DNA of 64,000 bases, taken from NCBI RefSeq assembly GCF_000720455.1, contig NZ_JOAK01000016.1:62001-126000 (forward strand), given 5' to 3'. The stretch is from Streptomyces virginiae (GTDB lineage: Bacteria; Actinomycetota; Actinomycetes; Streptomycetales; Streptomycetaceae). Below the pieces are notes generated by a model. That model was not told the DNA's origin. It saw nothing but the letters and a program-made list of their open reading frames with translations, and made no database searches. Position 1 is the first letter of the stretch, and each line of letters begins with the position of its first letter. The position numbers and the translations under genes are program-made. This document shows, piece after piece, positions 48,051 through 64,000 of this stretch.

Positions 48051-48054
<4 letters not shown>
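46774..48054 (-). CDS. MFS exporter of the NRPS cluster
   Basis: A 426-aa major-facilitator protein of the EntS/DHA3-like type, with about 12 helices: [20 protein letters not shown] at the N-terminus, [20 protein letters not shown] (the loop 2-3 motif) and a long central loop around residues 195-215. The GTG start overlaps the NRPS stop by 4 nt (GTGA), so it is the last gene of the operon and co-translated with the terminal NRPS. DHA3 transporters commonly export siderophores and peptide antibiotics; export of the peptide product is the natural inference. Confidence 0.87.
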
Positions 48055-55269
<7,215 letters not shown>

Positions 55270-55277
<8 letters not shown>

Positions 55278-58200
55278 CGGCGGAGCGGCGGAGCGTGGGA
55301 CGGGCCTTCGGCGCGTCGGTGAGCAGGGCGGCGGTGCGGGCCGGGGTCGGGTGCTGGAAGAGCTGGCGGATCTTCAGCTCCCGGCCGAGTTCGGCCCGGA
55401 TCCGGCTGATCAGCCGGGTGACGAGCAGGGAGTGGCCGCCCAGGGCGAAGAAGTTGTCGTCCGGGCCGACCTCCTCCCGGTCGAGGACCTCGGCGTACAG
55501 GGCGCGGACGCGGTCCTCGGTGCTGCCGCCCGGGTCCGCGGCCGGCTCCGGCGCGGCGGGGGCGGCCGCGGCCGTGCGCGGGGCCGGGCCGTCGACCGAG
55601 CCGACCGCCCGCTCCGGGGCGGCCGCGAGACCGCGCAGCACCAGGGCCAGGTCCGCCGCCAGCCGCTCGGCGCTCGTACGGTCGAACAGCTCGGTGGCGT
55701 AGGTGAGTTCCCCGGTGAGGCCCAGCGGGGTGCCGTCGGCGGCGCGCCGCTCCCCGAGGTCCACCCCGAGGTCGAACTTGGACACCGCCCATTCGACGGG
55801 GTGCGGCTGTGCCGTGACGCCCGTCAGGCGGGGCAGGGCGGGCGGCTCGTTCTGGACCTGGAGCAGCACCTGGAAGAGCGGGTGCCGGGCGAGGGACCGC
55901 TGCGGGTTCACCCCCAGCACGACCCGCTCGAAGGGCACGTCCTGGTGGGCGTAGGCGGCGAGGTCGCTCTCCCGGACCCGGGCGAGGAGGTCCGTGAAGG
56001 CCGGGTCGCCGGAGACGTCGGTGCGCAGGACCAGGGTGTTGACGAAGAAGCCGACGAGGTCGTCGAGCGCCTCGTCCGTGCGGCCCGCGACGACGGTCCC
56101 GATCGGGATGTCGGTGCCTGCCCCGAGGCGGGACAGGAGTACCGACAGCCCGGCCTGGAGGACCATGAAGAGGGTGCAGCCGTGCTGTCGGGCCAGTTCC
56201 AGCAGCCGTCCGTGCAGCTCCGCGTCCAGCTCCAGGGGGACGGAGCCGCCCGCGAAGCTCGCCACCGCGGGGCGCGGCCGGTCGTAGGGCAGGGCCAGCT
56301 CGGCAGGGGCGCCGGCCAGCTCCTCGGTCCAGAAGGCGAGCTGACGGGTGATCGGCGCGTCCGGGTCGCCCTCCGCGCCGAGCACGGACCGCTGCCAGAC
56401 GGTGTGGTCCCGGTACTGCACGGGCAGCGGCTCGAAGGCCGGCTCCGCGCCCGCCAGGCGGGCGGCGTAGGCGGTGGCCAGGTCGGTCAGGAGCGGCCCC
56501 CAGGACCAGCCGTCGGTGGCGATGTGGTGGATCACCAGCACCAGCACCCACTCCTCCCGGCCCAGCTCCAGCAGCCGGGCCCGCAGCGGCAGTTCGGCCG
56601 AGATGTCGAAGCGGTGGCCCGTCACCTCCCGTACCGCGTCCGCTACTGCGCCGGCCTCCGCGACGGCGAGGACCTCCAGCGGCACGTCGGCCGACGCACC
56701 CTCCAGCAGCCGGATCACCGGCTCGCCCCCGCACTCGTCGAAGACGGTCCGCAGCACCTCGTGCCGGGCCACCACGTCACCGAGCGCCGCACGCAGCGCC
56801 GACGCGTCCAGCGGACCCCTCAGCCGGTAGGCGAAGGGCACGTTGTGGTGGCCGGACGGGCCCTCCGCCTGGTGCGCGAACCACAGCCGGTGCTGCGCCG
56901 AGGACAGCGGCGCGCCCTGCCCGGGCTCCGCACGGCGCAACGGCGGCCGCGCCCGGTCGGCGTTCCCGGCCAGCTCCGCGAGCGCGGCCACGGTCTGCGC
57001 GCGGAAGACCTCGCGCAGCGGCAGCTCGACCCCGAGGGCCGTACGGATCCGGCTGACCAGCCGGGTCGCCAGCAGAGAGTGGCCGCCCAGGTCGAAGAAA
57101 CCGGCGTCGGCGGCGACCGCGTCGAGGCCGAGCACCTCGGCGAAGAGGCCCGCCAGGATCTCCTCCCGGGGGGTACGGGGGGCACGCCCGCCGGAAGCGG
57201 GCAGCGCGGGCTCGGGCAGGGCCCGGTAGTCCACCTTGCCGTTGCGGGTCAGCGGCAGCGCGTCCAGGACCATGACGTACGAAGGCAGCATGTAATCCGG
57301 CAGCAGCCGCTCCAGCCGGCGCCGCACCGAGGGCCCGGAGACCTCCCCGACCACGTACCCGGCCAGCCGCTTCTCGCCGTCCGCGGCCGCCCGTACGGCG
57401 ACCACGGCCTGGCGGACGCCCGGGCAGGCGGCCAGCGCGGCCTCGACCTCGCCGGGCTCCACGCGGAAGCCGCGGACCTTCACCTGCTCGTCGGCCCGGC
57501 CGAGGAATTCCAGCAGCCCGTCGGCCCGCCACCGGGCGAGGTCGCCGGTGCGGTACATGCGCGTCCCGGGCGCGCCGAACGGGTCGGCGACGAACCGCTC
57601 CGCGGTGGCCGCGGGACGCCGGTGGTAGCCGCGCGCCACTCCGGCACCGGCGAGGTACAGCTCGCCCGGGGTGCCCGGCGGCACCAGCCGCATCCGCTCG
57701 TCCAGCACGTACGCGCGGGTGCCGTCCAGGGGGCGGCCGATCGGCACCGGGCCGTCGGCGTCCGCGGCGCCGGTGATCAGGTGGGCGGTCGCGCACAGGG
57801 TCGCCTCGGTGGGCCCGTACAGGTGGCGGACCACGGTGTCCGGGCACGCCGCCAGCACGGCGCGGACCGCGGCGGGGCTGACGACGTCGCCGCCGGTCAG
57901 CACCTCGCGGACGCCGGCCAGCAGGCCGGGGTCCTCCTCGGCGACCACGCGGAACAGGCCGGCCGTCAGGTGCACGGCGGTGATGCCCGCCCCGCGGATC
58001 AGGGCGCGCAGCCCGGCGACCGTCGGCTCGCCCTCGGGGGCGACGACGACCTGCCAGCCGGACAGCAGGGCCACCCACAGCTCGTAGTCGGCGATGTCGA
58101 AGGCGTGCGGCGCGTGGAACAGGACGCGCTCGGTGCCCCGGGTGTGCCAGCCCCGGTCGGCCACGAGGTCCAGGACGTCCCGGTGGGTGACGGCGACGCC

Positions 58201-61200
58201 CTTGGGCTCGCCGGTCGAGCCCGAGGTGTGCATCAGGTAGGCCAGTTGCCCGGGCGGGCACGGCGCGGCCGCGAACTCCCCGCCGTCCGCGAGAGCGCCG
58301 GGGGCCTGCGCCGCGCCGGCCAGGACCGTCCGCACTCCCTCCGGGGCGAGCCCGGCGTGCGCCTCGTCGACCAGCAGCACGGAGCAGCCCGCGGCGTCCA
58401 GGATCCGCCGGGTGCGCGCGGCGGGCTGGCCGGCGTGCAGCGGCAGGTACGCGCCGCCCGCCTTGAGGACGGCCAGCATCGCCACGACCACCTCGGGGGA
58501 GCGCCCCATCAGTACGCCCACCGGGGATTCGGCGGTGAAGCCGAGGCCGGCCAGCCGCCGCGCCAACCGGTCGGCGCGCCGGTCCAGCTCCCCGTAGGTG
58601 ATGGCGTCGGGGCCGGACACCAGGGCCACGGTGGCCGGGTGCAGCGCGGCCCGCCGGGCGAATTCCAGGTGCACCGCCGTACCCGCCCGGGGCGGGGCCG
58701 GCGGCTGCCAGTCGGCCAGCAGCTGCTGCCGCTCCCGCGGCAGCAGCACCTCCAGGGCCGAGATCCGGCCGCGCGGCGCCCGTACCGCAGCCGCCAGGAT
58801 CCCGCGCAGCCGCTCCACGAGGGCGCGCACGGTGGCCTCGTCGAAGAGCTCCGTACGGTACTTGGCCACCGCGCTCAGCCCCTCGCCCGCCCCGGCCGCC
58901 TCCGTGAACTGCAGCGCCAGCTCGAACTCGGCCCGCGGTACGTCCACCTCCTCGGCCACCGCCGTCAGCCCGGGCAGCTCAAGGCCGGCGGCGGCCGCCC
59001 GGCGCATCGTCAGCGCCACCTGGAACAGCGGGTGGTGGGAGAGCGAGCGCCGCGGGTTGACCGCCTCGACGACCTGCTCGAAGGGCACGTCCTGATGGGC
59101 GAAGGCCGCCAGGTCGCTCTCCCGCACCCGCTCCAGCAGTTCCGCGAAGGCCGGGTCCCCGGACAGGTCGGTGCGCAGGACCAGGGTGTTGACGAAGAAG
59201 CCCACCAGATCGTCAAGGGCTTCGTCGGAGCGGCCCGCGACGACCGTGCCGATCGGCACGTCGGTCCCCGCGCCGAGCCGGGACAGCACCACCGCCAGCG
59301 CGGCCTGGAGCACCATGAAGACGGTGCAGCCGTGCGCCCGGGCCAGCGCCTCCACCTGCGCGGTCAGGGCCGCGTCCAGGCCGAAGGCGACGGCCGCGCC
59401 CGCCGGATCGGCCACCTCCGGCCGGGGCCGGTCGGTGGGCAGCACCGGCTCCTCCGGCAGCCCGGCCAGCGCGGTGCGCCAGTACGACAGCTGCTCCTCG
59501 GCCGCGCCGTCCAGCAGGGCGCGCTGCCAGAGCGTGTAGTCGGCGTACTGCACGGCCAGCGGAGGGCGCGGCTCGGCGCCGCCGCCCGTGCGGGCCGCGT
59601 AGGCGTAGGAGAGGTCGCCCAGCAGCGGCCCCCAGGACTCGCCGTCGGTGGCGATGTGGTGCAGGGCCAGCACCAGCGTGTGCCTCTCGGGCCCGGCGGT
59701 CAGCAGCGCGGCCCGCAGGGGCGTGTCGGTGGCCAGGTCGAAGGGGCGTGCGGCGATCTCGTCGATGTCCGCGCCGGCCGCGTCGAGGAGTTCCAGGACG
59801 GGCGCGGCCGGGGGCAGTACGACCTGCAGGGGCTCGCCGTCGGCCGCCGGGTGGATCGTACGCAGGATCTCGTGCCGCTCGGCCAGGTCGGCCAGCGCCC
59901 CGCGCAGCGCCTCCACGTCGAGCGGACCGTCCAGCCGGACCGCGACCACGCTGTGGTAGGCCGGGTCGGACCCCTCAAGCCGGTCCAGGAACCACAGCCG
60001 GCGTTGCGCCGCGGAGAGCGGCAGCTGCGCCGGGCGCGGCTGCGGCCGCAGCGCGGGACGGGCCCGGTCCGCGCCGTCGACCAGCGCCGCGAGCGCGGCC
60101 GGAGTGCGGGCGGCGAACACCTCACGGATGCCCAGCTCCGCGCCGAACGCCCCGCGGACCTGCGCCACCAGCCGCATCGCCAGCAGGGAATGGCCGCCCA
60201 GCTCGAAGAAGTCGTCGTCGGCGCCCACCCCGGGCAGGCCCAGCACCGACGCGAACAGGCCCGTCAGGATCCGCTCCCGCTCGGTGCGGCCGCCACGGCC
60301 GCCGGCGCGCACGGAGGGGGCGGGCAGGGCCCGCCGGTCCAGCTTGCCGTTCGGCGTCACCGGCAGCTCGTCCAGCACGACCACGGCCGGGACCATGTGC
60401 TCGGGCAGCTTGGCGGCCAGCTCGCCGCGCACCCCGGCGGGGGTCGGCGCGGCGCCCTGGCGGGGCACCACGTACGCCACGAGCCGTGGATCGCCGGGGT
60501 GGTCCTCGCGGACGACGACCGCCGCGTGGGAGACGCCCGCGCAGCCCGCGGCGGCGCTCTGGACCTCGCCCGGCTCGATGCGGAAGCCGCGGATCTTGAC
60601 CTGGTCGTCGGTGCGGCCCAGGTACTCCAGGACGCCGTCGGCCCGCCAGCGGACCAGGTCGCCCGTGCGGTACATGCGGGCCCCCGGCTCGAAGGGGCAG
60701 GCCACGAACCGGTCGGCGGTCAGAGCGGGCCGGCCGAGGTAGCCGCGGGCCAGCTGCACGCCGGCCAGGTACAGCTCGCCCGCGGTACCGGGCGCCACCG
60801 GGGCGAGCCGGCCGTCCAGCACGTACGTACGGGTGTTGGCGGCGGGCCGGCCGATCGGGACCGTGGCGTCCCCGGGCCGGCAGGGCCAGAGCGTGACGTC
60901 GACCGCGGCCTCGGTCGGGCCGTACAGGTTGTGCAGCTCCGCGCCGGGCAGGACCCGGAAGAAGGCGTCCTGGGTGTGCGGGGGCAGCGCTTCGCCACTG
61001 GCGATCACCCGGCGCAGTGAGCGGGCGTCCGCCGCTGCGGGCTCGCGCAGGAACACGTCGAGCATGGACGGCACGAAGTGCGCGGTGGTGACGGACTCCC
61101 GGGCGATCAGGCCGGCCAGGTAGGCGGGGTCCTGGTGGCCGCCGGGCTTCGCGACCACGAGGGTCGCCCCGGTCAGCAGCGGCCAGAAGAACTCCCACAC

Positions 61201-63138
61201 CGAGACGTCGAAACCGCTCGGCGTCTTCTGCAGCACCCGGTCCCCGGCCCCCAGACCGTACTCCCGCTGCATCCACTCCAGCCGGTTGACGATGGCCCGG
61301 TGCGGGACCAGCGCGCCCTTGGGGCGGCCGGTGGAACCGGAGGTGAAGATCGCGTACGCCGGGTGGTCGGGAAGGACCACCGGCCGCGGTGCGGGATCCG
61401 CCGCGGGGAGCGGGGCGTCCAGCCGCAGCGTCGGCGTCCCCGGCGCCTCCCAGCCGGTGCTCAGCACCAGCGCCGGGGCGGCGTCGGCCATGATCCCGAG
61501 GCTGCGCTCCTGGGGCTGGCCGGGGTCCACGGGCAGGTAGGCCGCCCCCGCCTTCAGCACCCCGCACAGGGCGACCATCAGGTCGAGCGAGCGCGGTACG
61601 GCGACCGCGACCAGGCTCTCCGGTCCGATGCCGCGGTCCGCGAGCACGTCCGCGAGGCGGCCCGCCCGCTCCTCCAGCGCCCGGTAGGTCAGGGACTCGC
61701 CCTCGAAGACGACGGCGGTGGCGTCCGGCGTCCGGGCCGCCTGCTCCGCGAGCAGCGCGCTCAGCGTCGACTCCGGGAGGGCGGCGGCGGTGTCGTTCCA
61801 CTCGGCCAGGACCCGGTGGCGCTCGGCCGCGGTCAGCGCGTCCAGGGCCTCCACCGGCGCGTCCGGGTCGGCCGTCCACCGCTCCAGCAGCCGCACCAGC
61901 CGCTCGCCCAGCTCCCGCACCCGCTCGGCGGCGACGAGCCCGGGGTGGTGGCTCAGCCGCAGCCCGAGCGCCGCGCCCGGCTCGACCACCAGGGTCAGCG
62001 GGAAGTGCGTGGTGTCCCGGAACCGGATCCGCGCCTCCAGGCCGAAGCCGGGCAGGTCGAGCGCGTAGTCGCTCATCGGGAAGTTCTCGAAGACCAGGTT
62101 CGTGTCGAAGAGGGCGGCCGGGGAACCGGCCAGCTTCTGGATCTCCGTCAGCCCCAGGTGGTCGTGGTCCACCAGCTCCGCCCGCTCGCCCTGGAGTTCC
62201 GCGCAGACCCGGCGCAGCGGGGCGGCCGCGTCGATCCGGGCCCGCACGGGCACGGTGTTGATCAGCATGCCGATCATCCGCTCCGAACCCGGCAGTTCGG
62301 CGGGGCGGCCGCTGACCGTGAGACCGAAGACCACGTCGTCCTGCCCGGTGGCGCGGGCCATGAGCACCGCCCAGGCGCCCTGGACCACGCTGGTCAGCAG
62401 CAGCCCGCACTCCCGGGCCCGCGCGGTCAGCGCCGCCGTCCGCTCCTCGTCCAGCCGCACCACCACGTCCTCGGGGGTGGCGCCGGGGGAGACCCGGCCG
62501 GCGCCGTCCGCGATCCGGCCGGGCGCGTCGAGACCGGCCAGGGCGGTGCGCCAGGCCTCCTCGGCGGCGGGCCGGTCGCACCGCGCGAGGTGCGCCAGGT
62601 ACTCCCGGTAGGGCCGCACCGGCTCCGGCTCGCCACCCGCGTACAGGGTGAACAGCTCGCGGAAGAGCAGCCCGAACGACCAGCCGTCCAACAGGATGTG
62701 ATGGGCCGTCACCAGAAGTCGGTGCCGGTCGTCCGCCAGCCGCAGCAGCGTGAACCGCAGCAGCGGCGGGCGGCGGCTGTCGACGCCCTGCGCCCAGTCC
62801 TCCTCCGTCAGCTCCGCGGCCCGTTCCGCGGCCGCCCCGGCGGGCAGAGCGCCGAGGTCGTGCTCCTGCCAGGCCGGCTCCATGTCCCGGCGGACCACCT
62901 GGACGGGATCACCGTTCTTGCGGTGGGTGAGGACCACCCGCAGGTTGGCGTGGCGGCGCAGCAGCTCCCCGGCGGCCCGGCGCAGCCGATCCGCGTCGAG
63001 CGTCCCGTCCAGGTCGACGGTGAACTGGGCGATGTAGAGGTGCTTGGAGTCCTCGTCGTACCCGGAGTGGAAGAGCATGCCCTCCTGCAGCGGGGAGAGG
63101 GGCAGGACGTCCTCGATGGCCGGCCGGCTGGTGTTCAT
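55270..63138 (-). CDS. NRPS protein: C-A(Ser)-T-C-A(Hpg)-T-C-T, last module without A domain
   Basis: A 2622-aa synthetase. The N-terminus [20 protein letters not shown] with HHILLDGWS is a DCL-type condensation domain that accepts a D-residue, as expected after an upstream epimerase. Order: C (1-430), A1 (460-960), T1 ([16 protein letters not shown] near 983), C2 (1045-1480), A2 (1490-1990), T2 ([15 protein letters not shown] near 2018), C3 (2075-2520), T3 ([16 protein letters not shown] near 2566). A1 code reads D-V-W-H-I-S-L-V-D-K, the classic L-Ser signature. A2 code reads D-I-Y-H-L-G-L-L-C-K, typical of 4-hydroxyphenylglycine. C3 joins T3 through a Pro/Ala linker with no adenylation motifs at all. 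Confidence 0.93.
55995..56325 (-). repeat. Near-identical NRPS condensation-domain segment, copy in the A-less module
   Basis: The partner of the segment at 54300-54630, lying in the C3 domain before the A-less carrier. Flanking parts of the two C domains diverge, so homogenization is local. Confidence 0.6.
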
Positions 63139-63204: not shown

Positions 63205-64000
63205 TCAGAGGAGGCCGAGGGAGGCCGCGAGGTCGTCCAGTTCGTCCTGGCCGATCGCGTCGAGCGTCAGGCCGGGGGCGGGCGGGACGGTGGAGGAGGC
63301 CGCGGGGCCGGTGCGGTCGGCGTGGACGACGAGGGCGCCGAGCATCCGGAACCAGCCCTCGGCCAGGGCCCGGACCTCCGCCTCGTCGTGGACGCCGTCG
63401 GCCCAGGCCCAGTCGGCGTGCAGGACGGGTCCGTCCACCGACTCCAGGACGAAGGCGCTCACCTCGACGGGGTGCGCCATCGGCATGCCCGGGCCGGGGG
63501 CGTCGAGCCGGGCCCCGTGGGCCGGCAGCAGCTGCCAGTCGCCGCCGCCCGGACCGCCCAGCCGGCCCAGGTAGTTGAAACCGAGGCCCGCGGGCTCCGC
63601 CGCGGCGAGCTCCTTGCCGACGACCGGGTCGAGGTGGCGCAGCAGGCCGTACCCGATGCCCTTGCGCGGGATCGCCCGCAGCTGCTCCCGGACCCGCCGC
63701 AGTGCCTCGGCGGCGGTGGGGCCGCCGTCCTCGGCGTCCGCCGCGCCCAGGCCGTCCAGGGCGAAGCGGGTGGGGAAGAGGGTGGTGAACCAGCCGACGG
63801 TGCGGGAGAGGTCTACCTCGGTGCCGATGTCCTCCCGGCCGTGGCCCTCCAGCTCCACCAGGACCTCCGGGCCGCAGGGCCGCCACCGGGCCAGGGCCAG
63901 GCAGAGCCCGGTCAGCAGCACCTCGTTGGCGTCGGCGCCCAGCCGGTCGGCCACCGACGTCAGCAGCGGCCCGGCCGTCGCCGCGGGCAGGCTCAGGGCG
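63205..64000 (-). CDS. Upstream NRPS, C-terminal epimerization domain (5' end outside window)
   Basis: The 264 visible residues end with the stop at 63205 and continue off the right edge. The E-domain motifs are present in order: VLVELEGHGRED, VDLSRTVGWFTTLFPTRF, PRKGIGYGLLRHL and FNYLGRL. It therefore converts the previous residue to the D-form before transfer to the DCL-type C domain of the next protein, 66 nt downstream. The last 20 residues (LTLDAIGQDELDDLAASLGL) look like a COM donor docking helix. Upstream A domain and substrate lie outside the window. Confidence 0.9.
   Translation of the reverse strand, partial: ALSLPAATAGPLLTSVADRLGADANEVLLTGLCLALARWRPCGPEVLVELEGHGREDIGTEVDLSRTVGWFTTLFPTRFALDGLGAADAEDGGPTAAEALRRVREQLRAIPRKGIGYGLLRHLDPVVGKELAAAEPAGLGFNYLGRLGGPGGGDWQLLPAHGARLDAPGPGMPMAHPVEVSAFVLESVDGPVLHADWAWADGVHDEAEVRALAEGWFRMLGALVVHADRTGPAASSTVPPAPGLTLDAIGQDELDDLAASLGLL

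Follow-up and report, generated by a model that had tools for sequence, protein, structure and literature searches.

The window, a 64,000-nucleotide stretch of Streptomyces virginiae contig NZ_JOAK01000016.1 (C16), spans C16:62001-126000, and a C16 position minus 62000 gives the window position. It carries two synthetase genes and part of a third from a nonribosomal peptide synthetase (NRPS) operon that crosses its right edge. One NRPS of 2622 aa ends in a module with a condensation (C) and a carrier (T) domain that lacks an adenylation (A) domain. Genes for a stand-alone A protein, an A-T didomain protein and a type II thioesterase (TEII) lie just beyond the edge. The A-less module is probably charged in trans, with the TEII as shuttle. 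A few antibiotics are already known to be made with such an arrangement.

The A-less module and its relatives

Pfam finds three Condensation, two AMP-binding and three PP-binding stretches in the 2622-aa open reading frame (ORF). The third C domain (C3) retains the catalytic motif HHIATDG at residue 2204, and the third T domain (T3) retains GGHSL at residue 2567. Patterns for motifs A3, A5 and A8 match the protein only at residues 599/739/851 and 1638/1774/1890, within the first two modules. An earlier note on this DNA had described the final module as a complete C domain followed by a T domain with an intact GGHS serine and no A domain. Pfam, our own profiles and the motif search confirm that description. 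C3 falls in the LCL-like part of the C-domain tree.

A protein with a T and an epimerization (E) domain (T-E), followed by C-A-T-C-A-T-C-T, is found in nine related clusters, those of Streptomyces sp. NRRL S-244, S. melanogenes, CBMA152 (spread over two contigs), G257, G059, G071, G212, G122 and G019. Domain order was called with profiles built from the window's cluster. G071, G212, G122 and G019 make up a second subfamily, and the window's own subfamily has six loci. The nearest named relatives of the T-E protein are from Streptomyces (95% and 68% identity). Across the ten loci read, the linker between C and T is 15-47 residues long and therefore leaves no room for an A domain. GGHSL of T3 is kept in all ten and HHxxxDG of C3 in nine; the exception is NRRL S-244, in which the frame is broken inside C3 and also inside the next C domain. 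Over C-T, dN/dS is 0.26-0.43 in six pairs (NG86, a rough measure in GC-rich DNA). In the tree, C3 domains from the two subfamilies do not form a common group, which may reflect repeated origins of the A-less state or an exchange of C domains.

Candidate loader and shuttle families

The earlier note held that trans loading requires a stand-alone A or A-T protein elsewhere, to be sought in the flanking genome. Both are encoded in the same operon past the right edge (531 and 601 aa), with the TEII gene behind that of the A-T protein. The TEII is a stand-alone protein with a GHSMG (GHSxG) serine and a catalytic His, and its nearest solved chain is 7e3z. A TEII model from a 46-homologue alignment, whose first row (P0004) is a protein other than the window's TEII, has a pLDDT of 88; without the alignment the value is 37.

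A TEII search of 199 genomes shows a score gap between 16 listed matches of at least 153 bits and the next, at 125.5. Ten of the eleven new loci above the gap were inspected. In each of the five top-scoring loci (298-322 bits) an A-T gene adjoins the TEII and an A-less T domain is present; C and T share one protein in three of them and lie on two divergent genes in two. No E domain was matched in any of these five, so A-T and TEII accompany an A-less T even without a T-E protein. The ten next-ranked TEIIs served as controls, that of G038 being located from the same search. Six controls have no C-T; one of the six, G015, has an A-T gene adjoining its TEII. G136 carries two TEII-clade loci plus a locus for the enduracididine enzyme MppQ. 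An extra N-terminal A-less T occurs in T-C-T-C-A-T-TE and T-C-T-C-T-C-A-T-TE proteins (G063, G136).

An A-domain tree made by a quick method without bootstrap holds 15 A-T rows, of which 13 fall into a single clade (SH-aLRT 100) that contains no cis A domain (G000, S. melanogenes, G059, G063, G136a, G136b, G142, G193, G110, G043, G038, G093 and G077a). The clade takes in 13 of the 14 TEII-adjacent A-T proteins. The two rows outside it are G212, far from its TEII, and G015. Runs of C-T modules lie beside same-clade A-T proteins in three control loci (G038, G093, G077a). As aligned by MAFFT, all 13 clade rows have the specificity code DAVDLGLVDK or DAVDFGLVDK. The code of the 531-aa A protein, DVEFAAEVVK, resembles proline-type codes. 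DAQDLGVVDK is given as a code for Glu and Gln in the available text of PMC12283262. A literature search on specificity codes returned only an unrelated match. The A-T gene of G257 is fragmented over several frames (G257:C8 about 315048-316811), as a pseudogene or through sequencing errors.

In the C-domain tree, the opening C domain of each of six lines joins all seven C domains that follow an E domain in one fully supported group apart from other C domains. A single after-T row, from a mycobacterial line, also belongs to this group. The first C thus points to the T-E protein as its upstream partner, which would start the chain. Domain order, intact motifs, gene neighbourhood, conservation, the A-T clade and the placement of the first C are read directly from the sequences.

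Operon context

Genes are transcribed in the order 104-aa ORF, MbtH, DDAH-like, TauD, A-T, TEII, HmaS, Hmo, aminotransferase, stand-alone A, T-E, 2622-aa NRPS and 2408-aa NRPS (Table 1).

Table 1. Features of the operon and its surroundings (window positions, or contig positions where marked C16)
Feature	Position	Strand	Basis or remark
NRPS, 2622 aa, C-A-T-C-A-T-C-T, proposed modules 2-4	55270..63138	-	ORF, Pfam, own profiles
C3, condensation domain of A-less module, residues 2076-2520	55579..56913	-	profiles
C-T linker, 15 residues, Ala/Pro-rich	55534..55578	-	site where an A domain would sit
T3 carrier domain, residues 2536-2605	55324..55533	-	profiles
NRPS, 2408 aa, C-A-T-C-A-T-TE, proposed modules 5-6 and release	48051..55277	-	8-base overlap with 2622-aa gene
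T-E protein, 575 aa, without A, proposed module 1	63205..64000 (cut by window end); whole gene C16:125205-126932	-	
Stand-alone A, 531 aa	C16:126985-128580		adjoins T-E gene
Aminotransferase	C16:128573-130027		HpgT by context
Hmo	C16:129883-130989		best solved match 4-hydroxymandelate oxidase, 372 bits
HmaS	ends at C16:130986		best solved match 2r5v, 384 bits
TEII	C16:132065 to about 132880 (start approximate)		different frame, directly behind A-T gene
A-T didomain, 601 aa	C16:132880-134685		
TauD oxygenase	C16:134678-135841		
DDAH-like enzyme	C16:135781-136629		
MbtH	C16:136634-136861		
ORF of 508 aa	44110..45636	-	GNAT acetyltransferase and AAA ATPase matches within one ORF
SpoIIE-type phosphatase, 448 aa	45391..46737	+	overlaps opposite-strand 508-aa ORF

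The solved match of HmaS, 2r5v, is taken to be hydroxymandelate synthase. The three 4-hydroxyphenylglycine (Hpg) genes have strong matches in the three relatives that share the module-3 code of the window's cluster, DIYHLGLLCK. No strong match to them was found in G257 and G059, whose module-3 code is DTWDQGIIDK. For the DDAH-like enzyme, the NCBIfam dimethylargininase model is matched above its cut-off, yet the nearest solved chains are Sll1336/Alr4995. DDAH and TauD genes are present in all six loci of the window's subfamily; the searched stretches of G071, G212, G122 and G019 gave no strong match to either (reporting floor 120 bits). Citrulline as the trans-loaded residue, an idea drawn from the DDAH-like gene, was dropped as unsupported; the same A-T code is present in other loci.

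Proposed loading and its alternatives

The earlier note had compared the module with those of ramoplanin and enduracidin. An A-less inner module and a trans A-T enzyme are common to both sides. By published description, however, the ramoplanin and enduracidin A-T proteins carry an N-terminal extension of ~300 aa, required for ramoplanin (excerpts of PMC8949500, a review covering ramoplanin, enduracidin and syringomycin). AMP-binding begins at residue 13 of 601 in the window's A-T protein. The extension is thus absent, these are not the closest systems, and the TEII-shuttle systems LgnA, WS9326A and rotihibin fit better.

LgnA, the legonindolizidine TEII, has a canonical triad and in vitro carries Thr from an A-T protein's T domain over to an A-less T, a transfer that its S77A mutant fails to make (available text of PMC8748450). 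LgnB, LgnA and LgnD share with the window's cluster an A-T didomain, a stand-alone TEII with Ser in GHSxG and an A-less acceptor T. There, however, Thr goes onto the first T of LgnD, whereas the window's cluster has an inner-module acceptor and a Glu/Gln-like code. According to excerpts of PMC7539972, WS9326A depends in vivo on both of its trans A proteins; a TEII shuttle is proposed for WS9326A and himastatin, as cited in passages of PMC8552735 and PMC9943842. WS9326A likewise has an A-less C-T inside its line, but uses two loaders (Thr, Asn) in place of one A-T protein and a separate A beside T-E. For rotihibin, RthB (A-T), RthD (TEII) and the A-less module 2 of RthA are proposed to cooperate (PMC8552735, in part). 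The same three parts occur in the window's cluster; rotihibin differs in its Thr-type loader and reductase release.

The window's A-less module has the parts of the shuttle kind, namely a C-T with catalytic His and carrier Ser, a separate A-T protein, and a GHSxG TEII with catalytic His. The syringomycin kind (SyrB1/SyrC/SyrE) has a SyrC/CmaE-type transferase with a Cys nucleophile. Here the gene adjoining A-T encodes a TEII with GHSMG; no search aimed at SyrC relatives was made. The kutzneride system (KtzN/KtzH/KtzO,P) combines a stand-alone Glu A protein, an A-less module and a TauD-type hydroxylase; it is not known to have an A-T/TEII pair, and it is likened by description only. A search with MppQ, meant for a comparison with enduracidin, led instead to three loci (family above cut-off) that we take to be mannopeptimycin-like lines; each has a C-T-E module and no match to A-T or TEII within 120 kb. 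In mannopeptimycin a cis A domain serves twice, and the same probably applies at these three loci. This pattern, an A-less module without A-T or TEII, is not that of the window's cluster, which has both, so A-less modules are of at least two kinds.

We consider it probable that the C-T module is charged in trans, as module 4 of a six-residue assembly line. The A-T didomain would activate a Glu/Gln-like amino acid onto its own carrier, and the TEII, through its GHSMG serine, would pick up the aminoacyl group and hand it to T3. C3 would link the trans-loaded residue to the peptide that arrives from module 3 (Hpg), after which the 2408-aa protein would take over the chain. The six-residue product is predicted to have Ser as residue 2 and Hpg as residue 3. 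The stand-alone A protein would independently charge the T-E protein, whose E domain would supply the first C, of DCL type, with a D residue. Tailoring of the trans-loaded residue, or of its precursor, is the probable role of the TauD oxygenase and the DDAH-like enzyme. The loading and transfer steps, the amino acid, its hydroxylation and the product are predictions from sequence.

In the nearest alternative, an unlikely one, the A-T protein's A domain loads T3 without an intermediary and the role of the TEII is confined to clearing wrong groups. A loader of that sort would not need its own T, and the association of A-T, TEII and A-less T recurs, although neither point is decisive. TEIIs are best known as editing hydrolases, canonical hydrolysis is described in part of PMC8748450, and GHSxG is common to shuttle and hydrolytic TEIIs. 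We rate somewhat lower the proposal that the stand-alone 531-aa A protein charges both T-E and C-T, with the A-T/TEII pair acting elsewhere. Relatives of this protein occur in all nine related clusters, even where the window's A-T gene is missing, and one is the only stand-alone A found in G122. In five TEII loci, however, A-T and TEII accompany an A-less T where no E domain is matched, and the first C falls among the after-E domains, as expected if A and T-E start the chain.

It is improbable that T3 is charged by an adjacent cis A domain, with module 5 as its likeliest source, that also serves its own T. One A domain serving twice is mentioned for viomycin and capreomycin in excerpts of PMC8552735, and the three mannopeptimycin-like loci offer a parallel, but the window's cluster has the A-T and TEII genes that those loci lack. 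Skipping of the C-T module, or its merely passing on the chain without adding a residue, is very unlikely given the intact motifs in readable loci, dN/dS below 0.5 in six pairs and the presence of loader genes. In its favour, WS9326A is said to include module skipping, a point attributed to Kim et al. 2021. An assembly error between similar C domains, which the earlier note had named as a possible refutation in the form of a gap, is rejected as having next to no chance. C3 and the next C do share long identical stretches, and in the NRRL S-244 assembly the frame is interrupted in both, but C-T stands at the same place in nine related clusters, and in eight of these the frame is unbroken at that point.

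Several observations weigh against trans charging by the A-T/TEII pair. Among the ten inspected TEII loci, no A-less T is in view at G110 (251 bits), which does have the A-T, or at the four scoring below 230 bits, where an adjoining A-T is missing too. Four of the ten control TEIIs (G043, G038, G093, G077a) also adjoin A-T and C-T modules. G015 is a TEII-adjacent A-T protein outside the clade, with another code, and the 13 clade rows represent, in our reading, about six line layouts and are not 13 unrelated lines. Code position 239 is gap-dependent, reading V by MAFFT and Q ungapped, the latter giving DAQD(L/F)GLVDK. No relative of the window's A-T protein was matched as such in the second subfamily (G071, G212, G122, G019), and G122 shows one stand-alone A for two A-less carriers. 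The TEII clade alone was rejected as a marker of A-less modules because some of its loci lack an A-less T and some controls have C-T.

A broader possibility, which we put forward tentatively and at less than even weight, is that the A-T clade with its fixed Glu/Gln-like code and the TEII shuttles form a portable loading cassette for A-less modules. Such a cassette would serve several kinds of Streptomyces line, some with consecutive C-T runs, as an NRPS counterpart of trans-AT polyketide synthases. A limited product-directed search of the open-access literature found no paper naming a product of the window's cluster. If loading in trans holds, colinear prediction overlooks one residue of the product, and a single loader family could be put to use in several lines to supply or exchange a residue. 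How a TEII finds its acceptor carrier can be asked across the nine related clusters and the other loci, which are natural replicates.
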